Origin: Parazoarcus communis SWub3 = DSM 12120
Lineage (GTDB): Bacteria; Pseudomonadota; Gammaproteobacteria; Burkholderiales; Rhodocyclaceae
DNA: 64,000 nt
Direction of reading: 5' to 3'
Assembly (NCBI RefSeq): GCF_003226565.1
Contig: NZ_QKOE01000013.1
Span: 62,001 to 126,000 of the forward strand
The position numbers and the translations under genes are program-made. Below, piece by piece: positions 9,413 through 63,008 of this stretch (within the stretch, counting starts at the first letter, position 1; every line of letters starts with the position of its first letter). The notes under the pieces are model-generated. The model was not told the origin of the DNA. It searched no databases and saw only the letters and a program-made list of their open reading frames with translations.

Positions 9413-9429
9413 GATGGATGCGTTCCGGA

Positions 9430-10685: not shown

Positions 10686-10758
10686 GATGACCTCCTTTTG
10701 CAGCGAGCGGCGGTGGGTAGCCGCTCCGGACCGGCAAGGCAGCCGCTGCCGCCCTGCG

Positions 10759-12465: not shown

Positions 12466-12466
12466 G

Positions 12467-12772: not shown

Positions 12773-12798
12773 GATTGCTCCTGTCTGTTGTCGCTTCG

Positions 12799-13104: not shown

Positions 13105-13120
13105 CGGACCTCGAAGGCGT

Positions 13121-13423: not shown

Positions 13424-13463
13424 GACTCTCTCCGCGGCGCAGTCGCGCCGTCAACATGCTTGT

Positions 13464-33951: not shown

Positions 33952-34067
33952 GTACTCAAGTTCAATGGAATCATGCGCTTGCAGCCAGAGGCTCTTGCGC
34001 CGCACCATAATCTTGCACGAAGGGGGCGCAGAACACCCGAAACCAGCGATTTCGGTGCATTCTGGCG

Positions 34068-34082
34068 TGGCACGCCACTTGC
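34068..34082 (+). promoter_or_regulatory. Sigma-54 promoter of the NMT1-type ABC transporter operon
   Basis: TGGCACG-CCAC-TTGC matches the -24/-12 consensus TGGCACG-N4-TTGCW except for the last base. GG and GC are 10 bp apart as required. The predicted start is near 34094, about 30 nt before the ATG at 34126. Confidence 0.75.
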
Positions 34083-34125
34083 CAGTTGGAACCATCGCAT
34101 TTTCGCTACACAACTGGAGTTCAAC

Positions 34126-35160: not shown

Positions 35161-35299
35161 GCCCGTCCCACCCGCAAGCCGTCCCCGCGCCGCCCTGATC
35201 CAAGGCTGCGGGATGCCCGGGGCCGGTCGAACACCCTCGACCGCCCCCCACGCAGAAGGAGCGCGCGGGCGCTGCATCGGCGCGCCCGCCACATGCATC

Positions 35300-36079: not shown

Positions 36080-36093
36080 GCCGGGAGCCCCTC

Positions 36094-39684: not shown

Positions 39685-40880
39685 GCCGAAGCTCCCTTGG
39701 TAGCCGTATCCGAAATTTCCCCAGTCTTGCCCTCCACCGCTGCACGGGCAGGCTGAGGTGCGGCTTCAGCGCTGTCGCCAGCCTTGCGCGTCATCAGCTT
39801 GCGCCACAGGCCAACCACGCCATCAGGCAGATAGAGCGTGACTGCGATGAACAGGAAACCAAGGAAGAAAGGCCAGTACTCGGGCACGGTGACGGTGAAG
39901 TAACTCTTGGCCAGATTGACGATACCCGCGCCCAGCACCGCCCCGATCAAAGTGCCGCGTCCGCCGACCGCGGCCCACACCGCGATCTCGATCGAGTTGG
40001 CCGGGCTCATCTCGGAAGGGTTGATGACGCCGATCTGCGACACATACAGCGCCCCCGCCATGCCGCACAAAACCGCCGACAAAGTCCAGATGAACAACTT
40101 GTAGTGCAACGGGTTGTAGCCGATGAACATGACCCGCGACTCGGCATCACGAATCGCGGTCAGGATGCGGCCCAGCCGCGATGTCACCAGGTAGCGGCCC
40201 AACACCAGGCAGGCAATCAGCAAGGCTGCCGACAGCGCGAACAGCATTACGCGCGTTTCCGGCGCGGTGATGTCATAGCCCAGGATGCGCTTGAAGTTGG
40301 TGAAGCCGTTGGTGCCACCAAAACCGGTTTCGTTGCGATAGAAGTACAGCATTGCTGCATAGGTCAAGGCCTGGGTGATGATGGAGAAATACACCCCCTT
40401 GATCCGAGAACGGAAGGCGAACCAACCGAAAATGAAGGCCACCACGCCAGGCAGTGCCATCGCCAGAAAAGCAGCCCATAGAAAACTGTCGGATCCAGCC
40501 CAGTACCAGGGCAGTTCCTTCCAGTCGAGAAAGACCATGAAATCGGGCAAGTCCGACCCATAACTGCCATCGCGACCAATCTGGCGCATCAGGTACATGC
40601 CGAAGGCGTAGCCACCAAGGGCGAAGAACAGGCCATGTCCCAGGCTGAGAATGCCGGCATAGCCCCAGATCAGGTCCATCGCCACGGCCACCACCATGTA
40701 GCACAGGATCTTGCCCAACAGGGTCAGGGTATAGGCAGACACATGCAGCGCATGGCCCTCGGGTAGCACCAGATGGGCCACAGGAATACCAATCCAGGTA
40801 ATCGCGGCGAAGACTGCGAGTGCAATCCAGCCGGTCCTTGGCATGCTCTGAAACAGTCTCACGGTGAATGGGGTGCGCAT
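39681..40880 (-). CDS. urtC: Urea ABC transporter permease UrtC
   Basis: A 399-residue LivM-like permease with about ten hydrophobic segments. It contains DLIWGYAGILSLGHGLFFALGGYAFGMYLMRQIG and the cytoplasmic loop TAIRDAESRVMFIGYNPLHYKLFIWTLSAVLCGMAGALYV. The Ala-rich C-terminal tail is poorly conserved. It lies 119 bp downstream of urtB. Confidence 0.94.
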   Translation of the reverse strand: MRTPFTVRLFQSMPRTGWIALAVFAAITWIGIPVAHLVLPEGHALHVSAYTLTLLGKILCYMVVAVAMDLIWGYAGILSLGHGLFFALGGYAFGMYLMRQIGRDGSYGSDLPDFMVFLDWKELPWYWAGSDSFLWAAFLAMALPGVVAFIFGWFAFRSRIKGVYFSIITQALTYAAMLYFYRNETGFGGTNGFTNFKRILGYDITAPETRVMLFALSAALLIACLVLGRYLVTSRLGRILTAIRDAESRVMFIGYNPLHYKLFIWTLSAVLCGMAGALYVSQIGVINPSEMSPANSIEIAVWAAVGGRGTLIGAVLGAGIVNLAKSYFTVTVPEYWPFFLGFLFIAVTLYLPDGVVGLWRKLMTRKAGDSAEAAPQPARAAVEGKTGEISDTATKGASA

Positions 40881-40999: not shown

Positions 41000-42619
41000 T
41001 CAGCTATCTGCAAACCGCCCCTTGACCGCGAAAATGCCCTGCGGCCGCTTCTGGATGAAGATGATGATGAACACCAGCACCAGGATCTTGGCGATCACCG
41101 CCCCCGCCCAGCCCTCCAGGAACTTGGCAAATATCCCCAGGCCCAGTGCCGCCCACACCGCGCCGGCCAGCTGTCCAACGCCGCCAAGCACCACCACCAT
41201 GAAGGCATCGACGATATAGCCCTGCCCCATGGCCGGCCCCACGTTGGCAATCTGCGACAGCGCCAGGCCACCCAGGCCGGCGACACCGGACCCAATCGCG
41301 AAAGCCATCGTGTCGACCCGCGCGGTCGGCACCCCGACACAGCCTGCCATCGGCCGGTTCTGGGTGACGGCACGAACGAACATGCCCAGACGGGTCTTCT
41401 GCATCATCAGCCAGATCAACACCAGCACGAACGCGGCAAAACCGACGATCACGATCCGGTTCCATGGCAGTACGACACCGGCAGCCAGTTCGATACCGCC
41501 CGACATCCAGCTTGGATTGGCCAGCTCGAGGTTCTGCGGACCGAACGTGACACGTGCGGCCTGAATCAGGATCAGGGACAAGCCCCAGGTGGCGAGCAGG
41601 CTCTCCAGCGGACGTCCATAGAGGTGGCGCAGTACCAGGCGCTCCATCACCACGCCAACCAGCGCCGCGGTGAAGAAGGCCACCGGGATGGCAGCAATCA
41701 CATACCAATCGAGGTACGCCGGCAAGTGACTGCGAAATACGCTCTGTACCAGGAAAGTGGCGTAGGCACCGATCATCAACAACTCGCCGTGCGCCATATT
41801 GATCACGCCCATCACCCCGTAGGTGATCGCCAGGCCAAGCGCCGCCAGCAGCAGAATGGAACCCAGCGACAGGCCGGAGAACATCGTTCCGGCCGTTTGA
41901 GCGATGGAGATGCGCCGTTCGATGGCGCGGATCGAAGCCTCAGCGGCGGCACGCACTTCGGCGCTGGATTCCACCCACATCGCGTTTTTACCCTCGCCGG
42001 TCTTCTCCAGCAGGGCGGACAGCATGTTCTTGACCGCCGGGTCGGACGAGCCGCCCAGCGCTTCAGCTGCTTTCAGGCGCTTGGCGGTATCGGACGACCC
42101 CAGGTTGATCTTGGCCAGGGCATACTCGAGCACGGTACGGATCGCCTCGTCCTGCTCGGCGGCCAGCGCACGCTCAAGCGCTGGCGTCATGGTTTCGGTC
42201 GCGTTCTCGCGCATCGTGGTCGCTGCAGCGAGACGCTCGGCAGGGCTTGCCGAAAAAAGTGCAAACGCTGCATTGGCCGTCGCAATCGAGCGCCGCAGGC
42301 GATTGTTCAGCGTGATGGTATCGACCTCGGTCACGGCCATCTCCAGCTTGTCGCCAGACGCGGCATCCATCACCTCATCGCCATCCGTGATGACCACACG
42401 CTCGGACACCACGCCCAGATTACCGGCTTCAAGTGCGGAGAGCACACGCCGGGCATCAGCACTACCATCAACGCCCAACGCCTCAATCGCAGCGACACGG
42501 CTGCCAAAATCTCCGGCGAAACCGGCGATCAGCGCCGGATCAAGTGCCGCACGGGCGGGCACGGCCAGACAGGCGAGCGAGACGAAGAGCAGCGCGAGCC
42601 GCATCAGCAATCGGTTCAT
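41000..42619 (-). CDS. urtB: Urea ABC transporter permease UrtB
   Basis: A 539-residue LivH-like permease. A signal-like first helix and about 215 residues of predicted periplasmic, Ala-rich helical sequence precede the membrane domain (from SLGSILLLAALGLAITYGVMGVINMAHGELLMIGAY, about residue 245). This N-terminal extension is a known feature of UrtB and distinguishes it from amino-acid LivH. The start at 42619 has GGAG 6 bp upstream; the ATG at 42631 is weaker. Confidence 0.93.
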   Translation of the reverse strand: MNRLLMRLALLFVSLACLAVPARAALDPALIAGFAGDFGSRVAAIEALGVDGSADARRVLSALEAGNLGVVSERVVITDGDEVMDAASGDKLEMAVTEVDTITLNNRLRRSIATANAAFALFSASPAERLAAATTMRENATETMTPALERALAAEQDEAIRTVLEYALAKINLGSSDTAKRLKAAEALGGSSDPAVKNMLSALLEKTGEGKNAMWVESSAEVRAAAEASIRAIERRISIAQTAGTMFSGLSLGSILLLAALGLAITYGVMGVINMAHGELLMIGAYATFLVQSVFRSHLPAYLDWYVIAAIPVAFFTAALVGVVMERLVLRHLYGRPLESLLATWGLSLILIQAARVTFGPQNLELANPSWMSGGIELAAGVVLPWNRIVIVGFAAFVLVLIWLMMQKTRLGMFVRAVTQNRPMAGCVGVPTARVDTMAFAIGSGVAGLGGLALSQIANVGPAMGQGYIVDAFMVVVLGGVGQLAGAVWAALGLGIFAKFLEGWAGAVIAKILVLVFIIIFIQKRPQGIFAVKGRFADS

Positions 42620-42705
42620 TGCAAGCTCCATCGGATCGTCCGCCCACCGCGGGCGAACTCGGTCAACTCGACGGTGACCAGATCACATCGCCGAAAGTTG
42701 GAAAA

Positions 42706-42767: not shown

Positions 42768-44024
42768 TCAGAGGCCTTGCTTGGCTTCATTCCCGGCGAT
42801 GAACGGACTCCACGGTTGCGCACGGACCGGACCCTTGGTCTTCCACACCACGTCGAACTGACCATCGGCACGGACCTCGCCGATGAACACCGGCTTGTGC
42901 AGATGGTGGTTGGTCTTGTCCATAGTCAGGGTGAAGCCGGAAGGCGACTTGAAGGTCTGACCGCCAATGGCCGCAATGACCTTGTCGGTGTCGGTCGTCT
43001 TGGCCTTCTCGACCGCCTGTTTCCACATGTGGATACCGACATAGGTTGCTTCCATCGGGTCATTGGTGACCACACTGTCAGCATTGGGCACGCCATTCTT
43101 CTTTGCCCACGCCTTGTACTTGGCGATAAAGGCGTCGTTCTCCGGGTTCTTGATCGTCATGAAGTAGTTCCATGCGGCGAGGTGCCCCACCAGCGGCTTG
43201 GTATCCACGCCGCGCAGTTCCTCCTCACCCACCGAGAACGCCACCACCGGCACATCGGTCGCTTTCAGGCCCGCGTTGCCAAGCTCCTTGTAGAAGGGAA
43301 CGTTCGAGTCGCCGTTGATGGTGGAGACCACCGCGGTCTTCTTGCCTTCGGAGGCAAACTTCTTGATGTTGGCGATGATGGTCTGGTAGTCCGAGTGACC
43401 GAAGGGGGTGTAGTCCTCCATGATGTCCGCGTCGGTGATGCCCTTGGTCTTGAGGAAGGCCCGCAGGATCTTGTTGGTGGTACGCGGGTAAACATAATCG
43501 GTACCAAGCAGCACAAAGCGCTTGGCCGAACCGCCCTCTTCGCTCAACAGGTACTCCAGCGCGGGAATCGCCTGCTGGTTGGGCGCCGCACCGGTGTAGA
43601 ACACGTTCTTCTCAAGCTCTTCACCCTCATACTGAACCGGGTAGAACAGCAGGTTGTTGGTTTCCTTGAACACCGGGTTGACCGCCTTGCGCGAAGCAGA
43701 AGTCCAGCAGCCAAATACCACGGCAACCTTATCCTGGCTGATCAACTGACGGGCCCGCTCGGCAAACAGCGACTCACTGGAGGCCGGATCGACCACCACC
43801 GGCTCAAGCTTCTTGCCCATCACGCCACCCTTGGCGTTGATCTCCTCGATCGTCATCAGCGCGACGTTCTTCAGCGCGGTCTCGGAGATCGCCATCGTGC
43901 CCGACAGCGAGTGCAGGATGCCGACCTTGATGGTATCGGCGGCGTGCGCACCGATCGGGGCGCCGATCGCGGCGATGGAGGCGGAAAGGGCCAGAGCCTT
44001 GATGAAGCTGCGACGAGTCTGCAT
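42768..44024 (-). CDS. urtA: Urea ABC transporter substrate-binding protein UrtA
   Basis: A 418-residue periplasmic protein with a twin-Arg-type start (MQTRRSFIKALALSASIAAIGAPIGAHA). The mature part begins TIKVGILHSLSGTMAISETALKNVALMTIEEINAKGGVMG and contains VVFGCWTSASRKAVNPVFKE and the family-typical NNLLFYPVQYEGEE, both diagnostic of UrtA. GGGAG lies 6 bp before the ATG at 44024; the frame remains open upstream without conservation. First gene of urtABCDE. Confidence 0.95.
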   Translation of the reverse strand: MQTRRSFIKALALSASIAAIGAPIGAHAADTIKVGILHSLSGTMAISETALKNVALMTIEEINAKGGVMGKKLEPVVVDPASSESLFAERARQLISQDKVAVVFGCWTSASRKAVNPVFKETNNLLFYPVQYEGEELEKNVFYTGAAPNQQAIPALEYLLSEEGGSAKRFVLLGTDYVYPRTTNKILRAFLKTKGITDADIMEDYTPFGHSDYQTIIANIKKFASEGKKTAVVSTINGDSNVPFYKELGNAGLKATDVPVVAFSVGEEELRGVDTKPLVGHLAAWNYFMTIKNPENDAFIAKYKAWAKKNGVPNADSVVTNDPMEATYVGIHMWKQAVEKAKTTDTDKVIAAIGGQTFKSPSGFTLTMDKTNHHLHKPVFIGEVRADGQFDVVWKTKGPVRAQPWSPFIAGNEAKQGL

Positions 44025-44098: not shown

Positions 44099-44102
44099 GG
44101 AA

Positions 44103-44118
44103 TACGCAAGATTGCGTA
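44103..44118. promoter_or_regulatory. Palindrome upstream of urtA
   Basis: TACGCAA-GA-TTGCGTA is a perfect 7-bp inverted repeat just upstream of the possible sigma-54 element, followed by a further TGCGTA at 44123-44128. It could be an activator or repressor site; the protein is not identified. Confidence 0.45.
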
Positions 44119-44205
44119 GGGGTGCGTATCACCCGTGACAGCCACCGGCGCTGAGGCCCGCGCCAGACGCAGGATTGGGAGCCGCAGAGCGGCTAGATCA
44201 AGGCC

Positions 44206-50982: not shown

Positions 50983-53067
50983 TCAGAAATCAACACGTAA
51001 GGACACCCAGTGCCGGCGATCCACCACCCTCTGCATGCGCTCTTCACTGTGCGCACCGTTTAGCGACTGCACGGTGTATGCCAGTTCGCCGCGCAGCGTA
51101 TCCAGACGCAATGCCTTGGCCAGCCGCAGGTCAGTACGTTCGTAGCGTTCGGTCACGGTATTGCGTGACCACTTGATGGCACCAATCCAGTAGTGCACGA
51201 CCGACAGCTCGATGTCATGCGGCAAACGCTGCAGCCACAGCAATGACGTAGCGTTGCGTGGCGCTGACTGCTCTGCCAGTTCGCTATATCGACCGATAGA
51301 GCGCTTGAAATTGCTGCACCCGGTCGTGCAGTTGTAGACAAGATCGTAGCCAGCGTCATTGAGCGACTGACGAATACGGACGTTTGCATGGCCGACGACG
51401 AGAGTGCCAGTATCGACCGGCTGCCAACGCAACTGCAGTTCGTGACCGCGGATACGCAGATCCTCGAGCGCCTGCACCGTGTCGGGTGCCCCCGCCGTGA
51501 TTGAGATCCGCTGATGGTGCCGATCGGAGATCCGCTCATCGAAAAGACGGACATCCAGGCTCGCACGCCACGCTGGCCACCGTCCCAGATAACCCAGGTC
51601 CCAGCTGTCCAGACGCTCGGACGACAGTGACGCGTTCCCTTCGGCCTCGACCTCACCAGGTCCACTCAGTCGCCAGGCTTCGTAATCCAGCGTTCCAGCT
51701 GAACGCCAGGCACGGGCATATCCAAGTCGCACGGTGTGTCCAGGCAACAGGTGAACACTGACACTGGCACGTGGCGCCAGCTTGCTGCCGGCCAGCGAAT
51801 CGTGCTCGTGCGATAGCCCGAGATTGCCAGTAAGCCAGTGTGAAGGCTTCCATTCAAGATTGGCAAACACCCGGCCGACATCACGGCTCACGGTTCCCTT
51901 GCCACGCATCTGGGTGTCGGAGCGCAGGCTGTCCCAGCGCCAACTTGCACCCCAGGCCAACCGTATATCTTCCACCGGTAACAAGGTGTTGACGACTTCG
52001 AGTTCGTGTCTCGTACCGCGATCACCGGCCAGATCGACACGCGAAAAAGGTGCCATCAATCCAGGATCGACAAAGCTGCTGTCAGCCTCGTCGACGCTGT
52101 GTGAGTAACGGACCGACAGATCTGCAGTTTCCGACAGGCTGCGGAGCCACCGCATTTGCAACCAAGAGGAGGATTGTTCGGCATCGCGGACCGGGTCGTC
52201 CGGCTTATATAGTCCAGCGACCGGCAAACCTGACCCATCCTTGTCCCATCGCCCGACAAGGCGACTGCCCTCCACACGACCGAGACCTAGCTCAAAGCGG
52301 GTGCGAGGATCCAATTGCAGATTCACCGCGAAATCGAAGAGTCGCGTCCGGTTGCGATCCTGCCAGTCGGCATCTTCACGTGACACCGAAGATTCATTCA
52401 GGCCATCGTCACGCATCTGCTTGAAGCTCAAACGATAGTCCACACCGTCAGAGAGCTGGCCGCTGCGGCTGAGGTACACATCCCGCACGCCCTGGTTCCC
52501 TGCCCCGACGATCAGCGACGTCCCCTTGGCCAGTGCAGGATCGATGGTGATGATGTTGACGACCCCGAGGAAGGCATTGGTTCCGTATGACGTGGTGTTT
52601 GAACCACGAACCACCTCGATACGCTCGATGTCCTCCAGCGCAACCGGCACCAGTTCCCAGTTCATCCCCCCCCTGAACAAGGGCGAATGCAAGGAACGGC
52701 CATCCACCAGAACCTGCACGCGAGGCGAGAAATCACTGTCGTCGGTGACACCGTGGTAGGCCACCCGTGCCGGCTTGTCGCTCAGGGCATAGGTCTGAAA
52801 GCCTGGCACCAGCCTCATCACATCGCTTAAAGTCCGGGCTGCCGACGCCCTGAGCATGTCTCGATCAATCACTGTGACCGCAGTCGGCGCATCCGCCTGC
52901 TGCTGGGGCAGGCGACTGACCGAGGCGACCACCGGAAGCACATCGAGGAACGGAAGGTCGCTTGCGCCTGCTGAGGACAGACACAGCGCGCACGCCAGCG
53001 CAGCAGCCGGCCGCGGCACCAGTTTGCTTCGAGTCCTGGCCCAGCTTCTTGCCTGTCCGTCAGCCAC
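50983..53067 (-). CDS. TonB-dependent outer-membrane receptor
   Basis: A 694-residue protein. The signal peptide is ALACALCLSSAGASD. The plug contains DAPTAVTVIDRDMLRASAARTLSDVMRLVPGFQTY, VQVLVDGRSLHSPLF and IERIEVVRGSNTTSYGTNAFLGVVNIIT, typical of CirA/BtuB-like receptors. The barrel ends WVSLRVDF. The start is taken as the GTG at 53067 with GGAGGA upstream, because it gives a compact signal peptide. The LuxR-type response-regulator gene ends 147 bp upstream in the same direction, so the receptor may be one of its targets. Confidence 0.85.
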   Translation of the reverse strand: MADGQARSWARTRSKLVPRPAAALACALCLSSAGASDLPFLDVLPVVASVSRLPQQQADAPTAVTVIDRDMLRASAARTLSDVMRLVPGFQTYALSDKPARVAYHGVTDDSDFSPRVQVLVDGRSLHSPLFRGGMNWELVPVALEDIERIEVVRGSNTTSYGTNAFLGVVNIITIDPALAKGTSLIVGAGNQGVRDVYLSRSGQLSDGVDYRLSFKQMRDDGLNESSVSREDADWQDRNRTRLFDFAVNLQLDPRTRFELGLGRVEGSRLVGRWDKDGSGLPVAGLYKPDDPVRDAEQSSSWLQMRWLRSLSETADLSVRYSHSVDEADSSFVDPGLMAPFSRVDLAGDRGTRHELEVVNTLLPVEDIRLAWGASWRWDSLRSDTQMRGKGTVSRDVGRVFANLEWKPSHWLTGNLGLSHEHDSLAGSKLAPRASVSVHLLPGHTVRLGYARAWRSAGTLDYEAWRLSGPGEVEAEGNASLSSERLDSWDLGYLGRWPAWRASLDVRLFDERISDRHHQRISITAGAPDTVQALEDLRIRGHELQLRWQPVDTGTLVVGHANVRIRQSLNDAGYDLVYNCTTGCSNFKRSIGRYSELAEQSAPRNATSLLWLQRLPHDIELSVVHYWIGAIKWSRNTVTERYERTDLRLAKALRLDTLRGELAYTVQSLNGAHSEERMQRVVDRRHWVSLRVDF

Positions 53068-53158
53068 ATCTCCTCCCGACACCTCGGCAAGCAACTCATC
53101 TCTCGAGGCATGACCTGAATCAGCACCACCTCGCGAATGACACCGCGAACCTACCGCT

Positions 53159-53214: not shown

Positions 53215-54174
53215 TCAGCCTTCCCGACCAGCACGCAGCTTCGACATCGCCATTGACGCCGCCGCAGTACGGGTCTCGACGCCGAGCTTCTCGAACACGT
53301 GCTCCAGGTGCTTGTGCACCGTGCGTGGACTGGAGCCGAGGATTTCGCCGATGTCGCGGTTGGTCTTGCCACGGATCACCCAGTACAGCACCTCCGCCTC
53401 GCGCGTGGTGAGGCGGAAGGCGGCGATCAGGGCCTCGATGGCGCTTGCGTCGTTCTCCTCACGCAGCACCACCAGCCACTCCTCGTCACCGGTCTGATCA
53501 TGGAAGGAGGCCAGCAACCTGCGTTGACCGTCGGCAGTCACAAGCGCCGTGATTTCCCGGCGTTCGCGACGGGCGAGTTCGGCGTTGTGGATCCAGCTCA
53601 GCAATCGGGGGGGCGCTATCTCGCCAGCCTCGCCGAGATCGGCCTCGAACCAGCTGCGGATCAGTTGCCGTGCCAACGGCGTCTGCCACACCAGCTTGCC
53701 GTCACGCGCACGCACGGCCACCGTCGCCTGGCCGAAGGCGTCGAGCGCACTGCGAGCCTGTTTCATCTGGCGGGCGTTGAGCACGTGAGCAGCAATCCGC
53801 GCCAGGACCTCGGCCGGCTTGATCGGCTTGGTCACGTAATCGGCCCCACCGGCGGCGAAGGCGGCCACCACGTGTTCGGTTTCGGTCAGGCCAGTCATGA
53901 ACAGGATGGGAATCGCACGGGTGGCAAAGTCAGCTTTCAACTGACGGGCGACCTCAAAGCCATCCATCCCGGGCATCACCGCATCGAGCAACACCACATC
54001 CGGCAGGCTCTGACGCGCACGGGCAAGGGCGCTTTCGCCATTGGTGGCCACCAGCACGAGATAACCCGCCTCATCGAGCGCATCGTGCAACAGGGCGAGG
54101 TTCTCCGGCACATCGTCGACAATCAGGACAATGCCGGCCGTGTTGGCATCGGCGGCAAGCGGCGGGGGACTCAT
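53215..54174 (-). CDS. LuxR-type response regulator paired with the NCS1-kinase
   Basis: A 319-residue regulator. The receiver (residues 15-130) has VLIVDDVPEN, the phosphoacceptor Asp in VVLLDAVMPGMDGFE and Lys in YVTKPIKPAEV. A PAS-like linker follows (about 140-245). The LuxR helix-turn-helix at the C-terminus reads FRLTTREAEVLYWVIRGKTNRDIGEILGSSPRTVHKHLEHVFEKLGVETRTAAA. Its ATG overlaps the kinase stop by 4 bp (ATGA), so the two form a tightly coupled two-component pair. Confidence 0.92.
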   Translation of the reverse strand: MSPPPLAADANTAGIVLIVDDVPENLALLHDALDEAGYLVLVATNGESALARARQSLPDVVLLDAVMPGMDGFEVARQLKADFATRAIPILFMTGLTETEHVVAAFAAGGADYVTKPIKPAEVLARIAAHVLNARQMKQARSALDAFGQATVAVRARDGKLVWQTPLARQLIRSWFEADLGEAGEIAPPRLLSWIHNAELARRERREITALVTADGQRRLLASFHDQTGDEEWLVVLREENDASAIEALIAAFRLTTREAEVLYWVIRGKTNRDIGEILGSSPRTVHKHLEHVFEKLGVETRTAAASMAMSKLRAGREG

Positions 54175-57100
54175 GAGGGTGGCTCCTTGCTGCGCAGCAA
54201 CTCGCGCATGGCATCGAACTGGAACTGACGTGCCAGTTCGCGCTGAACACGAACAAACTCTAGGTAGGCCGGATCGAGCGCCTCGATTGCGCTCAGGTGT
54301 TTGAGGATGCCGCGCAGAAAACCAAGCTCGATCAGCTCATCAAGGGCGCGCAGTTCGGCCTCGGGTGGCAGTACCAACTTTGTCACGACAGGCGCGAGCA
54401 CCGCTGCATCCGCTGCGGGGTCGTCTGCCCACACCCATTCCAGCTGCAGACGCTTGCCGATCCAGTCCAGCAAGTCCTCGACCCGGATCGGCTTCAGGAT
54501 GAAGTCCTCAGTACCGATACCGAAATCGTTGTCCAGCCCCTTGTCGAAGGCATTGGCAGAGATGATCGCCAGCGGCGCCTCGTCCAGCCCCGCGGCACGC
54601 AGGCGGCGAATGGTCTCCCAGCCGTCGATGCCTGGCATGGCCAGATCCATGAAGATCAGGTGCGGTCGGAAGCGCGGAACAAGCTCAAGACAGTCGTAGC
54701 CTGACGCGGCCTGGCCCACCTCGAAACCAAGCGGCTCGAGCAGGCTGACCAGCAGCTCCCGATCCACGCGCTCGTTGTCCACTGTGAGAATGCGGCGGCG
54801 CACGCCCTTATAGCCAATGCGCCGGGCACGGGGCAGGGCCGCGGCAGCTTGGGCATCGTGCAGTTGGGGCAGGAACAGACGGATGCGGAACACACTGCCA
54901 CGCCCCGGTGTACTCTCCACCGTCAGCTCACCTCCCATCAGGTCCGTCAGCATCTTGCTGATGGTCAAGCCCAGGCCCGTGCCCGTGGTTGTGCCGCCTT
55001 TGGCGCTGCTACCGCGAGTGAAGGGTTCGAAAATCTGCACCAACTCCTCATCGGCAATGCCAGGGCCGCTGTCTTCGATCTCGAACATGGCCATCTCGCG
55101 ACGGTAGGTCAGCGTCACCCGGACCGCACCACGCGGGGTGAACTTCACCGCATTGCCGATGATATTGATCAGGATCTGGCGCAGTCGCTTCTCGTCGGCG
55201 CGCACCACCTCGGGCAGCTTGCCGACGATGTCGAAAGCAAAGCCGAGACCCTTGTTGCGCGCCTGCAGCTCGAACATGCCGATCAGCTGCTGAATGAATG
55301 CGGGAAAGGCCAGCGGCCGGATGTCGAGGGCAAACTTGCCACTTTCGATACGGGCGATGTCGAGCGTACCCTCAATCAACGACAGCAGATGCTCGCCACT
55401 TTTCTTGATCACGCTGACCGCCTGCTGCCGGTGCGGTGGAATCGCCGGATCACCATCCAGGATCTGCGCGTAACCCAGGATGCTATTGAGTGGCGTACGC
55501 AATTCGTGGCTGATCGAGGTCACATAGCGGCTCTTGGCCTGATTGGCCTGCTCCGCCACCCGACGCGCCGTCTGCAGGGCCTCATCGGTGCGCTGATGGG
55601 ACTCGATCTCCTGCATCAGCAAGCGGGTCTGGCGATTGGACTCTTCCTGCGCCACCTGCCGGCTCTTGTGGGTCAGCACCATCCACCACGCACCAATGCC
55701 GCTCATCAGGAAAAGCGCGGCGTAGGTCTTGATCAGCACGCCCTTGAGCTCACCTTCGGCCACGATCGGCCCCCGCGCCAACAGTTCGTGGTAATACAAG
55801 GTGCCGAGCAGTAGTGCCAGGAAAAGGCTGATCCCCGACAAAAGCATCAGGTAGTGCCCAAGCCCGCCATCGATATATGGCCTGAGCGCACCGGGCAGGC
55901 AGCGTTCAAGCAAACCCGACCACTGCGCAGACAGCCGTGCATGCGGCTTGCACTGGTCCTCGCACCGCGCATCCAGCGAGCAGCACAAGGAGCAGATCGT
56001 GCCCTGGTAGGCGGGGCAGTGGCTGGTATCTTCGGGCTCGAAGTGCTGCCCGCAGATGCAGCACTGCCGTGTCGCCACCCAGGCCTTCCCTTCGTGAACG
56101 GCCGGCTCTGGTGGGCGCGCCAGGTAGTAACGTCCACGCGTCGCCCAGGCGATCAGCGGCGAGACCACCAGCGCCACCGCCATTGCCACAAAGGGCGCAA
56201 ACGGCTGGACACCGGTACCGAACACCCCGATGAAGGTGCACACCGAGAGCAACGAGGCCAGCACCATGGCCCCGACCCCGACCGGGTTGATGTCGTACAG
56301 ATGGCTGCGCTTGAACTCGATACCCTTTGGCGACCAGCCCATCGGCTTGTTGATGACCAGATCCGCCACCACCGCCACCATCCACGAAATGGCGATATTG
56401 GAATACAGCCCGAGCACCTGACCGAGCGCCTGGAACACGTTCATCTCCATCAGCAGCAAGGCGATCAGGATGTTGAACACCACCCACACCACCCGACCGG
56501 GGTGGCTGTGAGTCAGCCTCGAGAAGAAGTTCGACCACGCCAGCGAGCCGGCGTAGGCGTTGGTGACATTGATCTTGAGTTGCGACACGATGACGAACAG
56601 TGCCGTCACCGCCACCGCCCACAGCGCACTGTCGAACACCTTGGAAAACCCCAGCAGATACATCTGATTGGGGTCCACCGCCTTGTCGGCCGCCATGCCG
56701 TCACGCAGCAACAGCCAGGCCAGCAGCGCACCGCCAAGCATCTTCACCACGCCGATCAGCACCCAGCCCGGCCCGCCCAGCACCACGCCAAACAACCAGC
56801 GCCAGCGGTTCTGCTCGGTGCGCGCCGGCATGAAGCGCAGGTAGTCCGCCTGCTCTCCCATCTGCGTGATCAAGGCGATGCCCACCGTCATCGCTGCGGC
56901 GAAAAGATGAAAATCGAACGTCCCGCCCTGCCCCTGCACCCCCGGGTATTGCCACAACCCGGCCAGTGCGTCCGGCTCCTCGCGCAGCAGGAAAAAGAAG
57001 GGCAATGCAAGCAGGAATAGCCATAAAGGCTGAGTCAGGGTCTGCAGCTTGCTGATCACGGTAATGCCGTGAGTCACCAGGGGAATCACCACCAGCGCAC

Positions 57101-57650
57101 AGATCAGATAGCCCCAGGCAGGCGGGATGCCCAGCGCCAACTCCAGCGCATACGCCATGATCGCCGCTTCAAGCGCGAACAGGATGAAGGTGAAGGAGGC
57201 ATAGACCAGTGAGGACAGCGTCGAACCGATATAGCCGAAACCGGACCCGCGTGTCAGCAGGTCCATATCCACACCATGGCGCGCCGCGTACAGGCTGATC
57301 GGCAGACCAGTCAGGAAGATGATCAGGCCGATCGCGAGGATGGCCCAGAAGCTATTGACGAAGCCGTAGCCGACCAGCATGGTCGCCCCCACGGCTTCCA
57401 GCACCAGAAAGGAAGCCGCGCCGAAGGCCGTGTTACCAACCCGGAATTCGGTCCACTTGCGGAAACTGCGCGGCGTAAAGCGCAGCGCATAGTCTTCCAG
57501 CGTTTCGTTGGCAACCCAGGTGTTGTAGTCGCGGCGGATCTTGACCACACGCTGCGGCGCACCGTCACCGACTCCGCCTTGCGCGGATGCGCCCTCCTCC
57601 ACCATGCGGGCGGCGACGCTCGGTTCAGCCATCGGGTCTTGGGCGTTCAT
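54171..57650 (-). CDS. NCS1-family transporter fused to a hybrid sensor histidine kinase
   Basis: A 1159-residue inner-membrane protein. Residues about 45-510 form a complete NCS1 (nucleobase/allantoin/hydantoin/thiamine) transporter-like region of about 12 helices (ETLEDYALRFTPRSFRKWTEFRVGNTAFGAASFLVLEAVGATML at the start). A Cys cluster spans residues 531-568 (CCICG, HCPAYQGTICSLCC, CEDQC), resembling a zinc or Fe-S site. Two more helices lead to the kinase: His716 in SISHELRTPLNSILGYAQ, N box IIGNAVKFTP, G1 EDSGPGI, G2 GTGLGL. A receiver follows (from about 952, Asp1002 in FMDLAMPGIDG). An 80-residue helical C-terminal tail closes the protein. It probably senses or transports a small nitrogenous ring. 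Confidence 0.92.
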   Translation of the reverse strand: MNAQDPMAEPSVAARMVEEGASAQGGVGDGAPQRVVKIRRDYNTWVANETLEDYALRFTPRSFRKWTEFRVGNTAFGAASFLVLEAVGATMLVGYGFVNSFWAILAIGLIIFLTGLPISLYAARHGVDMDLLTRGSGFGYIGSTLSSLVYASFTFILFALEAAIMAYALELALGIPPAWGYLICALVVIPLVTHGITVISKLQTLTQPLWLFLLALPFFFLLREEPDALAGLWQYPGVQGQGGTFDFHLFAAAMTVGIALITQMGEQADYLRFMPARTEQNRWRWLFGVVLGGPGWVLIGVVKMLGGALLAWLLLRDGMAADKAVDPNQMYLLGFSKVFDSALWAVAVTALFVIVSQLKINVTNAYAGSLAWSNFFSRLTHSHPGRVVWVVFNILIALLLMEMNVFQALGQVLGLYSNIAISWMVAVVADLVINKPMGWSPKGIEFKRSHLYDINPVGVGAMVLASLLSVCTFIGVFGTGVQPFAPFVAMAVALVVSPLIAWATRGRYYLARPPEPAVHEGKAWVATRQCCICGQHFEPEDTSHCPAYQGTICSLCCSLDARCEDQCKPHARLSAQWSGLLERCLPGALRPYIDGGLGHYLMLLSGISLFLALLLGTLYYHELLARGPIVAEGELKGVLIKTYAALFLMSGIGAWWMVLTHKSRQVAQEESNRQTRLLMQEIESHQRTDEALQTARRVAEQANQAKSRYVTSISHELRTPLNSILGYAQILDGDPAIPPHRQQAVSVIKKSGEHLLSLIEGTLDIARIESGKFALDIRPLAFPAFIQQLIGMFELQARNKGLGFAFDIVGKLPEVVRADEKRLRQILINIIGNAVKFTPRGAVRVTLTYRREMAMFEIEDSGPGIADEELVQIFEPFTRGSSAKGGTTTGTGLGLTISKMLTDLMGGELTVESTPGRGSVFRIRLFLPQLHDAQAAAALPRARRIGYKGVRRRILTVDNERVDRELLVSLLEPLGFEVGQAASGYDCLELVPRFRPHLIFMDLAMPGIDGWETIRRLRAAGLDEAPLAIISANAFDKGLDNDFGIGTEDFILKPIRVEDLLDWIGKRLQLEWVWADDPAADAAVLAPVVTKLVLPPEAELRALDELIELGFLRGILKHLSAIEALDPAYLEFVRVQRELARQFQFDAMRELLRSKEPPS

Positions 57651-57721: not shown

Positions 57722-59161
57722 TTACTTGCCCTGCGCCTTCAGTGCCTCCTGCAACAGGGCCGCCTTGTCGATGGACATCGGCAGCGGCGCCTCAGCCGGG
57801 CACAGCTCGGCCGGATCCACGCCAGCACGGTCCTGACCCAGCTCGGCAGCCGTCGGCATGGCTTCGCGCGAGACCTCGAGTGCAGGCATCAACCGCCCCA
57901 TGCCCGCCAGCGTCCGCGCCTCGGCGACGACCACATCATAGCTGGCGTTGACGTAGGCACGACGGGCCTGGAAGTACTCGTTTTCAGTATCCAGCAAGTC
58001 AAGCAAGGTACGCTGACCGATGTCGAACTGACGACGATAGGCCTCTCGTGCCTTCTCGATCGACAGTTGATGCTGGTCGAGATAGCGCAACTGCTCAACC
58101 AGACGCTGACTATCGTTGTATGCGATGGAGACGGTCTGACGAAGGTCGCGACAGGCCTTCTCGCGCAGGTCGCGGGACTGATTCAGCTGTTCGGCAGCCT
58201 GACGGATACGGGCCTGATCGGCACCACCGCGGAACAGGTTGTAGCTGAATACCAACTCGACCACGCCATCACGGGAGCGGCCATCCGCCCCCTCGAGGTT
58301 ATCGGTCAGACTTTGCCGCGCACGCAGGTCCAGGCGAGGATGGTTGGCTGCGCGCCGGGTCTCGACCAACGCCTGGCCCGCACGAACGTTCTCGACCGCA
58401 GCGTTGATCGACGGGCTGGATTGCATCGCCTCGCGCAAGACCTCCTGCGCACTCGACGGCAAGGGCGCAGAACTGAGTCGCGCGCCGAAAGCCGGCATGG
58501 TCTGCGGCGGCGCCTCACCGACCAGACGCAGATAGCGCGTGCTGACGTCGTGCAGATTGGACACTTCCGTCAGCAGGTTGGACTCGGCCAATGCAACGCG
58601 CCCGGTCGCCTGCTCGAGATCGACCCGCCGGCCGACACCCGCCGATGCACGCTCTGCGATCTGGTCGAACACCTGCTTGTGCTCGACATAGTTCTGCTGT
58701 GCCAGACGGACGAGTTCGCGATACCGCAACACATCACCATAAGCGCGTACCACCTCGAGCGACGCCGACTCGGATGCATCCAGCAGTTCATAGTAGCGAG
58801 CAAGTCGCGCATACCCCATACGCGCCACTTCGTTACGGGTAAAGAAGCCGTCATACACCATCTGATTCAGCGACAGCGAGGCCCCACGACGGGTGTAATC
58901 GTCAGCCTCGGTACCAGGCCGCTTGCGCCACTCATGCCCAACGCCAGCGGTCAGGTCGACCTGGGGATAGTAGCCCCCTTTTGCCACATCCTGCTCAGCC
59001 TCAGCAGCCCGGAAACCATGCCAGCGCGCCTGCACTTCGGGGTTCGTGACAACCGCCTTACGCACCGCTTCACGCAAGACTTCAGGCACTTGCGCGTTGA
59101 CCTGGGCATGAGGCAAGACAGCAGCAAGCGCCAGAAAGACAAGTTTTCGAACCCCGTTCAT
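57722..59161 (-). CDS. TolC-family outer-membrane efflux protein (LapE/AggE-like)
   Basis: A 479-residue protein with a signal peptide (cut near VNAQ). It has two TolC repeats: EVLREAVRKAVVTNPEVQARWHGFRAAEAEQDVAKGGYYPQVDL and EVLREAMQSSPSINAAVENVRAGQALVETRRAANHPRLDLRARQSL, plus the ending segment FDIGQRTLLDLLDTENEYFQARRAYVNASYDVVVAEARTLAGMG. The wording fits type I secretion outer-membrane partners of large adhesins. GGAGGG lies just before the ATG at 59161. The PEP-CTERM, LapG and LapD genes are transcribed divergently from it. Confidence 0.9.
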   Translation of the reverse strand: MNGVRKLVFLALAAVLPHAQVNAQVPEVLREAVRKAVVTNPEVQARWHGFRAAEAEQDVAKGGYYPQVDLTAGVGHEWRKRPGTEADDYTRRGASLSLNQMVYDGFFTRNEVARMGYARLARYYELLDASESASLEVVRAYGDVLRYRELVRLAQQNYVEHKQVFDQIAERASAGVGRRVDLEQATGRVALAESNLLTEVSNLHDVSTRYLRLVGEAPPQTMPAFGARLSSAPLPSSAQEVLREAMQSSPSINAAVENVRAGQALVETRRAANHPRLDLRARQSLTDNLEGADGRSRDGVVELVFSYNLFRGGADQARIRQAAEQLNQSRDLREKACRDLRQTVSIAYNDSQRLVEQLRYLDQHQLSIEKAREAYRRQFDIGQRTLLDLLDTENEYFQARRAYVNASYDVVVAEARTLAGMGRLMPALEVSREAMPTAAELGQDRAGVDPAELCPAEAPLPMSIDKAALLQEALKAQGK

Positions 59162-59444
59162 GCACCCTCCAGACAATTCAATCGATGGATCTCGAACCCA
59201 AACGGTTCGTATCTGCCCCAATCTGGGCAACGCTTTGCATGATAGGGGGAAACTCGGGGTCATGCTGAGGAATACCACACAAGCTCGAGCCAGGCACTGC
59301 GCCGTCGAAACCACGCAAATACGCCATCCGTGACATATACACGCTATTACTTACGCTACAGGCTGCATAATCACCAAAACTCGACATGCCCTCAGGCGTG
59401 GCAATACTGCAACCAGACTGCGGCCACCGCAGCAGGAGATCACC
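59162..59444. other. Divergent intergenic region between the TolC-like and PEP-CTERM genes
   Basis: 283 bp without a gene. A CATAAT -10-like element near 59367 is the only promoter feature on the plus strand that I can point to. Nothing else recognisable. Confidence 0.3.
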
Positions 59445-60164
59445 TTGAAGACATTCACCACCCTCGCCGCGGCAACTGCCCTGCTGACCAGTGCATCCGC
59501 ATACGCTGCACCGCTCGTCTTCTTCGGCGAAGACGAAGGCTTGGGCGAAACGATTGCCCTGAGCTCGACACCGAACGCCGATGCCGCTCGCAACGCCTTT
59601 CTCGCCGCATTGAGTGGCCAGAATGTCGCAACCGAAGATTTTGAAAGCCATCCTTACACCACAAGTTTTACCCCCGGCACGCTGAATGTCGATTTCGGCG
59701 CACTCGGCACTGCAACCCTGAACCAGGGCTATGTCACCAACGACCCCTACGCGGGCCGCTACGCGACCTCGGGCGCGCAGTTCTGGGAGACCTACAGCTC
59801 GAGCTTCACGATCAACTTCTCGTCTGCGGTGATTGGCTTCGGTTTCTACGGCATCGACATCGGCGACTTTCTCGGCACGGTAACCCTGACATTGTCCAAC
59901 GGTAGCGAATTTACCGTTCCGCACAGCATCGACAATCCAGGTGGGTCCGTTCTTTACTGGGGTATTGTCGACACCGAAACCCCCTTTACCAGTGTCACTT
60001 TCGGCAATACCAATGCCGGTGCAGACTGGTTTGGCTTTGATGATTTCACCATCGCGACTGCCGGCCCCGGCAACAGGATTCCCGAGCCCGCGACACTCGC
60101 ATTGCTTGGTCTGGGTCTCGCCGCACTGGGCGCGGGTCGACGCGGAAAGCTGTCTCGGGCATGA
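59445..60164 (+). CDS. PEP-CTERM exosortase-target surface protein
   Basis: A 239-residue exported protein. The signal peptide is TLAAATALLTSASAYAAP. The mature part is Gly/Ser/Thr-rich beta sequence (VIGFGFYGIDIGDFLGTVTLTLSNG, WFGFDDFTIATAGPGN). The C-terminus has the sorting signal PEPATLALLGLGLAALGAGRRGKLSRA: PEP motif, hydrophobic helix and Arg cluster. Exosortase would cleave there and the protein would go to the exopolysaccharide matrix. The start is a TTG at 59445 with AGGAG 7 bp upstream. It is followed by lapG. Confidence 0.9.
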   Translation: MKTFTTLAAATALLTSASAYAAPLVFFGEDEGLGETIALSSTPNADAARNAFLAALSGQNVATEDFESHPYTTSFTPGTLNVDFGALGTATLNQGYVTNDPYAGRYATSGAQFWETYSSSFTINFSSAVIGFGFYGIDIGDFLGTVTLTLSNGSEFTVPHSIDNPGGSVLYWGIVDTETPFTSVTFGNTNAGADWFGFDDFTIATAGPGNRIPEPATLALLGLGLAALGAGRRGKLSRA

Positions 60165-60200
60165 CCCCTCGCAGGTCACAAGACCTGCAGCTGACACCCA

Positions 60201-60225
60201 GCCCACGTCCCTTTCGGGCGTGGGC
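60201..60225. terminator. Hairpin after the PEP-CTERM gene
   Basis: GCCCACG and CGTGGGC form a 7-bp stem with inner CCC/GGG pairing, 36 bp after the stop. It lies just upstream of a TATAAT (60233-60238) that probably serves lapG. The lack of a U-run makes it a weak terminator. Confidence 0.45.
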
Positions 60226-60232
60226 GCGCGCG

Positions 60233-60238
60233 TATAAT
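60233..60238 (+). promoter_or_regulatory. -10 element upstream of lapG
   Basis: TATAATCGG follows the hairpin at 60201 and precedes the lapG start by about 75 bp. It has no clear -35 at the normal spacing. The TATAATCSG form recurs before dbpA and the GDT1 riboswitch. Confidence 0.45.
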
Positions 60239-60313
60239 CGGTCTGGCGCAATGCTGCCTGTCGGCCCCGTGATCCGATAGCGTGCCGCTGCGCACCCACC
60301 CCGAACCGTGCGT

Positions 60314-61036
60314 ATGCGCCCCTTTTCCACTCGCTCCGACCTATGCCGTTCGGCCAGACCTGTCCCGTCGCCTCTGCTGCGACTATGCGCATTTGTGGTT
60401 TTCGCGGCGCTGACCTGGTTCGCAGGCGCAAATACCGACTTCGACCGGATGCAACGCCTGGCCAGCGAGCGCTTCGGCAATCAGGCGGGCGACATGGTCG
60501 GGGCCTGGCGGCGGTTGATTGATGAAAGCCGGGATATTCCCGAGACGGATCAGCTCACCCGGGTCAACCATTTCTTCAATCGCAGCATCCAGTTCGACGA
60601 CGACATCGTCGTCTGGCAGCAGCAGGACTATTGGGCCAGCCCGCTCGAGACCCTGGGGCGCCAGGCCGGTGACTGCGAGGACTTCGCCATCGCAAAGTAT
60701 GTCACCTTGCGCCTGCTGGGCATTCCGAAAGAGCGACTGAGACTGATCTACGTCCGTGCTCGCATCGGTGGTGCGGACAGCCCGGTTTCGCAGGCTCACA
60801 TGGTGCTGGGCTACTTTGCCACACCCACTGACGAGCCCCTGGTCCTCGACAACTTGATCGGCGACATCCGGCCCGCCGCCCGCCGTCCCGACCTGTTCCC
60901 GGTATTCAGCTTCAACAGCGAAGGCTTGTGGGTCGGTGGCGCGGCAGAATCCTCTGCCGATCCCACCGCAAGGCTGTCCCGCTGGCGGGATGTCCTTGCC
61001 AGAATGCGCAGCGAAGGCCTGGAGCTCACGCAATGA
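60314..61036 (+). CDS. lapG: LapG-type periplasmic Cys protease (transglutaminase-like)
   Basis: A 240-residue protein with an N-terminal signal/anchor (LLRLCAFVVFAALTWFAGA). The catalytic triad is visible: Cys121 (QAGDCEDFAIAKY), His162 (SQAHMVLGY) and Asp179 (PLVLDNL). The DDD of SIQFDDDIVVW lies in the region that binds calcium in LapG. LapG cuts the N-terminus of LapA-type adhesins to release biofilms and is held by LapD when c-di-GMP is high. The next gene, 37 bp downstream, is lapD. The GTG at 60308 is an alternative start. Confidence 0.9.
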   Translation: MRPFSTRSDLCRSARPVPSPLLRLCAFVVFAALTWFAGANTDFDRMQRLASERFGNQAGDMVGAWRRLIDESRDIPETDQLTRVNHFFNRSIQFDDDIVVWQQQDYWASPLETLGRQAGDCEDFAIAKYVTLRLLGIPKERLRLIYVRARIGGADSPVSQAHMVLGYFATPTDEPLVLDNLIGDIRPAARRPDLFPVFSFNSEGLWVGGAAESSADPTARLSRWRDVLARMRSEGLELTQ

Positions 61037-61073
61037 CCCCGCTTCCCAAGACATTTTTCGAGGTGTGCCAACG

Positions 61074-63008
61074 ATGTCACTGACCAAGCAACTCTGGATC
61101 GCAATCGCGATGGTGACCCTGCTGTCGCTTGGTGGCAGCCTAGTGGTCAGCACCCTGTCCGCCCGGCAGTACCTGCAGCAGGAGCTGGCGATCAAGAACA
61201 TGGACAACGCCACCTCGCTGGCCCTGTCACTATCTCAGCTGGACAAGGATCCGGTAACCATCGAACTGCAGATCGCATCCCAGTTCGATGCCGGACACTA
61301 TCAGCTGATCCGTCTGGTCGACCCCACTGGCACCCTGCTTGTCGAACGCAAGTACGCTGAACACAACCAGGGCTCACCGACCTGGTTCATGCGCCTGGTA
61401 CCCATCGAAACCCGTCCGGGCCTGGCCCAGGTACTCGACGGGTGGCGGCAGTTCGGTACCCTTACGGTGGAAAGCCATAGCCGCTATGCCTACGAATCGT
61501 TGTGGAATGCCACCCGCCAACTGCTGCTGTGGTTCGCCGGTGGCGGTCTGCTGTGTGGTCTGCTCGGCACCCTGGTACTGCGCTACATCACCCGACCTCT
61601 GGGCTCGATGGTGGAACAGGCCGAGGCCATCGGCGGGCGCCGCTTCGTGACCACCCCCGAACCTCGCACGCTGGAATTCCGCAGTGTCGTACGCGCAATG
61701 AACACCTTGTCCGAGCGCGTACGGACGATGCTGGCTGATGAAGCTCAACGGCTTGAACAGTTGCGCAGGCAGACCCAGTATGACGACCTGACCGGGCTTT
61801 TCAGCCGACAGCAGTTCCTCAACCAGCTCGATGCAGCGCTGTCGCGCAACGATGCCAGCGCTGGAGGCCTTCTGCTCATCACCCGCATCGCCAATCTGGC
61901 CGAGCTCAACCAGCGCCTGGGCCGCACTGCGGCTGATCGACTGCTCGCCACCCTGGCCAGCAAGCTCTCCTCCGTTGGTGAAGCGCATCCGGGCCGCGAA
62001 TGTGGACGCCTGAACGCATCGGACTTTGCCTTGCTCGCCGCAGGCGAGCTCGACGCCATGGCACTCGGAGAAGCCGTCAACGCGGCCTTTCAGACCGCAC
62101 TCACCGCCGACCTGCCGCATACTCAGCTGCTGATCGCGGTCGCGGGCTATGCCGAAGGCGAAGCACGCGGCAGCCTGCTCGCACGTATCGACGGAGGCCT
62201 CGCCGCTGCCGAACACGACGAGCAACACACACTCCAGATCGTCGCCAACCACACCGATCAACCGCTCTACAGCCACCCCGACGAGTGGCGGAAAGCCCTG
62301 ACGCACGCACTGCAAGGGCGTGCGATCAAGCTGGCCGGCTTTCCGGTACTCGGTCGCCAGGGGGAAGTGCTGCACCGCGAAGCACCGGTACGACTGCAAC
62401 TGGACGGTCACTGGTGCAGTGCCGGACGCGTGCTACCCTGGGCCGCACGGCTGGGCCTGGTAGCACGGATTGACGCCCTGGTTGTCGAAGCGGCCTGCGC
62501 CAGACTCGACAGACACCCCGAGATCACCGGCCTGGCAATCAATCTGTCGACCGACGCCCTGCGCGACGCTGCTTTCCGGGACCAGCTGCGCCGCACGGTG
62601 CAAGCCCACCCCACAGCGGCATCACGTCTCTGGATCGACATTCAGGAGATCAGTGCACTACGGCACCAGATGGAGTTCCGCGACCTTTGCCTGACGCTGC
62701 GCCCCCTGGGTTGCAAACTGGGTCTCAAGCATGCCGGACGCAGCTTCTCCCGCTTTGCCGAACTTCATGATGTCGGGCTCGACTACATCAAGATCAGCCC
62801 CGCCTTCATCCGCGGCATCGACCAGTCTCCCAGCAACAAGGCCTTCCTGCGCGGGCTATGTACGATCGCGCACTCGATTGGACTGCTGGCCATCGCCGAA
62901 GGTGTCGGTACGCCGGCCGAAGTCGCCGCACTGCCTGCATTGGGCATCGACGGCATGACCGGCCCCGGCATCACCGCTGAACCCGCCGCATTGAGTGAAC
63001 ACCCCTGA
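61074..63008 (+). CDS. lapD: LapD-type c-di-GMP receptor (degenerate GGDEF and EAL)
   Basis: A 644-residue inner-membrane protein. Two helices (residues 6-28 and about 145-170) flank a periplasmic output domain (LQQELAIKNMDNATSLALSLSQLDKDPVTIEL, SPTWFMRLVPIE). A HAMP region follows, then GGDEF with the signature replaced (RLNASDFALL) and EAL with EAP in place of EAL (VLHREAPVRLQL). Both are thus catalytically dead, as in LapD, which binds c-di-GMP through its EAL domain and sequesters LapG. Start at 61074; GAGG 10 bp upstream. Confidence 0.9.
   Translation: MSLTKQLWIAIAMVTLLSLGGSLVVSTLSARQYLQQELAIKNMDNATSLALSLSQLDKDPVTIELQIASQFDAGHYQLIRLVDPTGTLLVERKYAEHNQGSPTWFMRLVPIETRPGLAQVLDGWRQFGTLTVESHSRYAYESLWNATRQLLLWFAGGGLLCGLLGTLVLRYITRPLGSMVEQAEAIGGRRFVTTPEPRTLEFRSVVRAMNTLSERVRTMLADEAQRLEQLRRQTQYDDLTGLFSRQQFLNQLDAALSRNDASAGGLLLITRIANLAELNQRLGRTAADRLLATLASKLSSVGEAHPGRECGRLNASDFALLAAGELDAMALGEAVNAAFQTALTADLPHTQLLIAVAGYAEGEARGSLLARIDGGLAAAEHDEQHTLQIVANHTDQPLYSHPDEWRKALTHALQGRAIKLAGFPVLGRQGEVLHREAPVRLQLDGHWCSAGRVLPWAARLGLVARIDALVVEAACARLDRHPEITGLAINLSTDALRDAAFRDQLRRTVQAHPTAASRLWIDIQEISALRHQMEFRDLCLTLRPLGCKLGLKHAGRSFSRFAELHDVGLDYIKISPAFIRGIDQSPSNKAFLRGLCTIAHSIGLLAIAEGVGTPAEVAALPALGIDGMTGPGITAEPAALSEHP

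Follow-up and report, generated by a model that had tools for sequence, protein, structure and literature searches.

A fused NCS1-like transporter and hybrid histidine kinase in Parazoarcus communis, and its predicted link to urea uptake

A protein that joins a transporter-like half to a hybrid histidine kinase raises the question of what the transporter part recognizes and which genes the kinase controls. Such a protein is encoded in the window, that is, the whole 64,000-nucleotide stretch of Parazoarcus communis SWub3 analysed here. An earlier note, made from the letters alone, had described it as a single chain composed of a nucleobase transporter-like domain, a Cys cluster, two helices, a kinase, and a receiver; the open reading frame (ORF), Pfam, and AlphaFold2 confirm this fusion.

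Domain organization of the fused sensor

The sensor ORF (54171 to 57650, minus strand, ATG start) encodes 1,159 residues. Its NCS1-like transporter domain (residues 34 to 510; 56121 to 57551), delimited by an AlphaFold2 model with structure and profile comparison, is followed by a Cys finger (residues 528 to 570; 55941 to 56069) and by two extra transmembrane helices (about residues 590 to 665; 55656 to 55883) placed by the model and a hydropathy scan, both of which the predicted helix count of 12 plus 2 fits. The C-terminal part consists of HisKA (residues 705 to 771; 55338 to 55538), HATPase_c (residues 819 to 927; 54870 to 55196), and a receiver (Response_reg, residues 954 to 1062; 54465 to 54791), all encoded on the minus strand and all exceeding their Pfam gathering scores. 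The gene of a response regulator with REC and LuxR-type helix-turn-helix (GerE) domains by Pfam (53215 to 54174, minus strand) overlaps the kinase gene by 4 bp, as the earlier note had read; with HisKA, HATPase, REC, and this linked regulator, Pfam identifies the sensor as the hybrid histidine kinase of a two-component system. The transporter-bearing half is present once in its own genome, where the other 89 matches to the sensor begin at residue 653 or later. Downstream of the regulator lies a TonB-dependent receptor gene on the same strand (50983 to 53094). On the other side of the sensor, the stretch 57722 to 63008 encodes a TolC-family outer membrane protein, a LapG-like protease, and a LapD-like c-di-GMP receptor, maybe a Lap-type adhesin control cluster; its LapG and LapD scores fall below the NCBIfam equivalog cut-offs.

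Residues 1 to 656 have no Pfam match even at an E value of up to 10, and a PDB sequence search with the transporter part returned no match; structure and profile comparison were therefore used instead. Residues 31 to 700 were modelled with AlphaFold2 from 42 sequences (pLDDT 72.8, pTM 0.71). Foldseek ranked NCS1 structures first, all top five matches being Mhp1 or CodB (Mhp1 4d1a, E 7.6e-8; CodB, E 1.1e-7), and in VIA, CodB 7qoa (Z 31.7, rmsd 3.4, 393 residues aligned) and Mhp1 (Z 28.1 to 25.4) stood above the best non-NCS1 chain (Z 23.2). By hhalign, a profile of 24 family members matched eight PF02133 proteins over 378 columns with probability 98.2 and an E value of 4.6e-14. The window sensor itself does not match PF02133 at an E value of up to 10; three of four scanned kinase-free relatives pass its cut-off of 23.5 bits (L113, 31.8 bits; L214, 36.4 bits; a standalone Klebsiella protein, 37.7 bits), and the fourth, L112, stays below it. 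No Pfam match to the SLC5 (SSF) domain was found in the N-terminal half at an E value of up to 10, and NCS1 chains outrank SLC5 chains. The modelled domain is thus NCS1-like in fold, in agreement with the first reading. Likeness to the SLC5 protein DUR3 was considered as a clue to the ligand and discarded: maize DUR3 (9vim) scored Z 20.3, level with many LeuT folds, and so carries no ligand information.

Across 156 family members, all ungapped rows agree on residues E266, Q267, D269, K359, N361, and N364. In the profile alignment, K359 falls on the TM8 threonine of NCS1 proteins, a position that we take to belong to the Na2 region of Mhp1; sodium coupling may therefore have been lost in the sensor. 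Taken over 1,500 pairs drawn from 100 long rows, median pairwise identity is highest in the transporter (0.73), followed by the short coil before HisKA (0.72), the Cys domain (0.70), HisKA-HATPase (0.65), the receiver (0.61), and the stretch of two extra helices (0.51). The transporter is thus the best conserved large domain of the family, above kinase and receiver, which argues for a bound ligand and against a mere membrane anchor, the outcome that the earlier note had tied to a loss of transporter-fold residues. The domain may also transport, besides sensing.

The Cys finger and the sensor family

The three Cys motifs of the earlier note are present at residues 530 to 534 (CCICG), 553 to 557 (CSLCC), and 563 to 567 (CEDQC), and the finger holds eight cysteines in all (C530, C533, C545, C553, C556, C557, C563, and C567). 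C530, C533, C553, and C556 are invariant in 156 members; C545, C557, C563, and C567 occur in 155, the sole exception being the kinase-free L113, which is without just these four, so that the poor conservation named beforehand as an argument against a functional cluster was not encountered. The reduced pattern of four cysteines recurs in the standalone Klebsiella protein and in six other urease-linked standalone members, while all eight are retained in the formamidase-linked standalone L112, L285, and L288; the Cys tail of a further one, L289, lay outside the pattern's output. This partition suggests two metal sites, 530/533/553/556 and 545/557/563/567, probably occupied by zinc. Modelled alone with AlphaFold (pLDDT 68.8, pTM 0.43), the finger weakly resembles RING, FYVE, PHD, and ZZ fingers, with a best Foldseek E value of 0.4 and a best VIA Z score of 3.5 (for FYVE 2yw8, a weak match, Z 3.1 and rmsd 1.6 over 38 residues). 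The idea that it senses metal or redox state gained no support, and no evidence of an Fe-S or redox role was found. It occupies the place that STAC has after a transporter, where Pfam detects no domain. Across 229 genomes of the class, with at most 26 candidates scored per genome, the finger was seen at 14 places in 13 genomes, all 13 of which also have family matches, and none was seen outside the sensor family.

Of 398 genomes sampled from the phylum, 54 match the sensor, two of them weakly or in part (G545 through ordinary NCS1-like proteins only, G586 through a 52-residue piece); the class sample gave matches in 19 of 369 genomes, some partial. Near full-length relatives occupy the 80 loci in genome contigs taken as the best 80 of 590, so the fusion is not a chance product. 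In plasmids, tblastn matched 533 records, 504 of them covering at least 80% of the query and 342 in Klebsiella.

The input module is also found with other partners. In L209 and L123 (and, by likeness to L209, in L202), its partner is a kinase that has no receiver, so the family can do without a receiver in that chain; in L115 the partner is a PAS-PAS-kinase-receiver chain, and in L124 (4849 to 8520) a PAS-GGDEF-EAL chain, where urea or amide control of c-di-GMP is possible. Despite the swapped kinase, the module stays beside formamidase in L209 and, again by likeness, in L202. Among the members seen, 12 have no kinase at all, eight of them directly 3' of ureG (including L290, an incomplete frame) and four 5' of fmdA (L112, whose locus also has an amidase, L285, L288, and L289). 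One of these, in Klebsiella (L259, 8941 to 10548), immediately follows ureG and carries the annotation "cytosine permease"; it is a candidate urea permease. Since the Cys cluster is kept whole or in part in the kinase-free members and in the PAS-GGDEF-EAL fusion, sequence comparison assigns it to the permease module; of the reading as a linker, its conservation stands, and its restriction to joining a kinase does not. A more distant PF02133 protein without the cluster (L214, 8949 to 10442), excluded from the 12, has the motif RINVMNLYSGS, which resembles KINVTNAYAGS; it adjoins an apparent carbon-nitrogen hydrolase (by eye) and is maybe an outgroup amide permease.

Taken together, these members may form an NCS1 branch with a lysine in TM8, devoted to urea and short-chain amides and used as the permease of urease or formamidase operons, as a kinase transceptor, and as the input of a c-di-GMP enzyme. 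The two-site Cys finger would couple the branch to its outputs as STAC may in SLC5 transceptors, four cysteines sufficing in urease-linked permeases and eight being kept elsewhere. We give this broader view an even chance of being right.

Urea genes and a predicted operator

The window carries urea importer genes on the minus strand, urtA (42768 to 44024; substrate-binding protein, TIGR03407, 579.1 bits against a cut-off of 492.75, ATG taken from the sequence), urtB (41000 to 42631; TIGR03409), urtC (39681 to 40880; TIGR03408), urtD (38821 to 39684; TIGR03411), and urtE (37998 to 38690; TIGR03410). A urease cluster (8783 to 14333, minus strand) comprises ureG (8783 to 9508), ureF (9430 to 10137), ureC (10759 to 12465), ureB (12467 to 12772), and a minus-strand gene that is ureD-like by eye, with no NCBIfam match (13464 to 14333); its urease alpha subunit is the only one of the genome. 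The distance from the sensor is 10 kb for urtA and 42 kb for ureC. Reference FmdA and amidase sequences had no match among the window ORFs at an E value of 1e-8. Beyond urtE and a LysR-type regulator, genes for a substrate-binding protein, an ATPase, and a permease resemble an ABC importer by eye (33973 to 36867).

In 53 of 55 phylum loci (stretches of up to 19 kb, counted without G000, G107, and fragments, and without L214 to L216, which have no sensor), the sensor has urt, urease, formamidase, or amidase genes nearby; the two others, L182 and L213, are short stretches ending at contig ends. The class sample gave such genes at 10 of 17 loci, including that of the kinase-free L113, and the best 80 of 590 close relatives gave them at 42 of 80, against 0 of 20 control stretches far from the sensor in the same kind of genomes. 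No urea or amide gene was found in the fetched flanks of the other 38 close loci, the three most similar (L032 to L034) among them, many of these flanks ending at contig ends, nor within the stretches of L115, L120, L121, L122, L123, L124, and L127. Annotated loci illustrate the range: Burkholderia vietnamiensis G4 plasmid pBVIE02 has, pointing away from the sensor and regulator genes, five ABC-transporter genes along with those for nitrilase, FmdB, and formamidase; a Klebsiella plasmid has amiF-urtEDCBA; Mitsuaria has urease; and Paracoccus seriniphilus has AmiS/UreI and fmdA. Purine or hydantoin genes are absent at all four. The genomic context thus points to urea and short-chain amides; of the ligands listed in the earlier note, urea agrees with it, and nucleobases, hydantoin, and allantoin do not. 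A neighbourhood is no proof of a ligand, and a urea-derived or nitrogen signal would look alike. A quick tree with 102 members places the window sensor in a 38-row group (SH-aLRT 98), whose rows a script labelled urea-type in 22 cases, neighbour-less in 13, and amide-type in 2, one of these last two (L164) also carrying urease; across the tree, the amide and urea labels require six changes. By this placement, the window sensor belongs to the urea type.

Dyads were sought in the intergenic regions between sensor and urtA, 43 in all (35 amide-type and none from the window's clade), of which the 41 that reached 60 bp were used. ATACG-N8-CGTAT and words overlapping it were present in as many as 12 regions, and five shuffles gave no more than 2. 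The palindrome TACGY-N6-RCGTA has 70 matches in 2.47 Mb of loci, against 4 to 5 in shuffles, and 63 of the 70 lie near the starts of interest (52 at UrtA, 7 at FmdA, 4 at the sensor only), with 7 elsewhere; labels were set by script for sites no more than 600 bp upstream of the aligned start or 150 bp into the gene. It is found at UrtA in 47 of the 62 loci with UrtA. The exact motif is missing at UrtA in the other 15, namely L128, L175, L181, L183, L187, L189, L190, and L194 and seven urea-type loci (L080, L125, L126, L193, L195, L197, and L205), with a near match in L193 and L195. In L033 and L044, the palindrome occurs near the stretch end.

In the window, the predicted operator ATACGCAAGATTGCGTAG (44102 to 44119) is centred about 86 bp before the urtA ATG (44024), and a weaker match (44112 to 44129) overlaps it; no operator was found within about 350 bp before the sensor gene or ureD. 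The 18-base form with up to two mismatches has 4 matches in the window against 3.3 expected from shuffles, which is not significant, so position and conservation carry the weight. The genome (5.0 Mb) has six exact sites, one of them at urtA; around the other five, the ORFs within 1.5 kb, judged by eye, include no evident urea gene.

As a control, we scanned the urtA genes closest to the window's in 70 genomes, a draw taken as the same phylum sample as the 398-genome search; the 30 best were scanned as whole loci (L300 to L329), and 40 lower in the list as about 600 bp upstream plus 100 bp of gene (L330 to L369). In the raw count, the motif was present in 9 of the 28 sensor-bearing genomes and in 1 of the 42 that have no sensor (p 0.0008). 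After hand sorting, done once the result was seen, in which two intragenic hits were removed (L311, no sensor; L327 at 2023, with sensor), the motif stood at the urea-type urtA in all 8 genomes that have a urea-type sensor, in none of the 20 whose sensors are all amide-type, and in none of the 42 that lack a sensor (Fisher 1e-10). In the eight (G000, G107, G715, G596, G728, G738, G575, and G494), the sensor is urease-linked or, in G000, in the window's clade; three of the eight possess an amide-type sensor as well. The motif was found at the amide-type cluster instead in 17 of the 20 amide-type-only genomes. Several of the eight have urtA far from the sensor, by about 100 kb in G107 and 245 kb in G728. 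The palindrome thus links the predicted sensor system to urtABCDE, by which the output that the earlier note had left at the LuxR-type regulator can be given a name.

Proposed mechanism and comparison with known transceptors

Architecture, NCS1 relationship, Cys conservation, gene context, and the conserved promoter palindrome were all established by computation; from context, tree, and palindrome we therefore propose a urea-responsive transceptor kinase that controls urtABCDE, in our judgement the best explanation and a probable one. Urea, or a close short-chain amide, would be bound by the NCS1-like domain, and the ensuing conformational change would be relayed to the kinase by the cytosolic Cys finger, which probably has two zinc sites, and by the pair of extra helices. 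From the kinase, the phosphoryl group would be passed on to the LuxR-type regulator encoded in the overlap, the order of phosphotransfer and the direction of signalling being presumed, and the regulator would bind TACGY-N6-RCGTA before urtA and control the urea importer, presumably by activation rather than repression.

An amide version of this scheme, in which the window sensor too would respond to formamide or acetamide and to urea by cross-reaction only, is unlikely. The family is indeed divided between amide-type and urea-type neighbourhoods, and a review reports, in its account of the Methylophilus fmd cluster, induction by both formamide and urea (PMC10781810); however, where neighbours are known, most of the window's clade is urea-type, genomes that have urea-type sensors carry the palindrome at their urea-type urtA, and FmdA and amidase matches are missing from the window at the threshold given above. 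Urea is also an end product of purine breakdown, and the fold and profile of the sensor domain match NCS1, so the domain could instead sense a nucleobase, hydantoin, or allantoin, with the urea genes controlled within purine or pyrimidine nitrogen use. The four annotated loci without purine or hydantoin genes and the standalone members in urease or formamidase operons speak against this, and we consider it quite improbable. It is very improbable that the transporter is only an anchor and that the real input is the Cys finger, sensing metal or redox state, or a cytosolic nitrogen signal: eight near-invariant cysteines would suit such an input, but the transporter is more conserved than kinase and receiver, and kinase-free permeases retain the transporter together with the Cys part, in its four- or eight-Cys form.

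For soil bacteria, rhizobia, and plasmids of enterobacteria, the family offers named candidates for a sensor, a regulator, and an operator, and next to urease genes it offers a candidate urea permease. The Cys finger is possibly the second small domain, after STAC, by which a LeuT-fold transporter is coupled to a kinase. Among the titles and abstracts of the matches listed, a scope mostly outside subscription journals, no NCS1-kinase fusion or urea sensor kinase of this kind was described. Some urease regulators are known, e.g., ArsRS and CrdRS of Helicobacter. Clusters of the urt and fmd type in Methylophilus and Bradyrhizobium contain the same kinds of genes that adjoin the amide-type sensors. 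In Bradyrhizobium, a urt-like cluster that adjoins genes for formamidase and amidase is reported as probably specific for another amide (PMC3098086); the terms histidine kinase and two-component are absent from the main text of a further description of such clusters (PMC13209695), and the accessible text of these sources names no sensor kinase for urea or amides (PMC10781810, PMC3098086, PMC13209695).

The sensor domain resembles Mhp1 and CodB in fold and in its profile match to PF02133 proteins and differs from them by Lys359 at the aligned TM8 threonine, by the extra Cys finger, and by the kinase. SLC5 transporters share the LeuT fold, and CbrB is of a type different from LuxR-type regulators. 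The CbrA-like principle with an NCS1 sensor, suggested in the earlier note, holds: CbrA of Pseudomonas is presented as an SLC5-STAC-histidine kinase transceptor, with its transporter fused to a kinase via a small cytosolic domain (PMC13022988). Unlike CbrA, the window sensor has an NCS1-like rather than an SLC5 domain, a Cys finger and two helices rather than the four-helix STAC, a receiver in the same chain, a urea or amide rather than a histidine or carbon context, and a LuxR-type regulator beside it instead of CbrB. CrbS is an SLC5-STAC sensor and CrbR a LuxR-type regulator; they serve acetate and acsA, whereas the system here combines an NCS1-like domain with urea and urtA. As far as CrbS/CrbR is described, the two systems are alike in placing a metabolic gene under two-component control by its nutrient. 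Ks-Amt5 likewise reuses a nutrient transporter as a nitrogen-related kinase sensor; it differs in its ammonium transporter domain and in having no linking domain such as PAS, HAMP, or STAC, and its response regulator is given as not yet identified in the account concerned (PMC5764959). Among the matches listed, and as these sources present them, CbrA and Ks-Amt5 are the closest described transceptor kinases.
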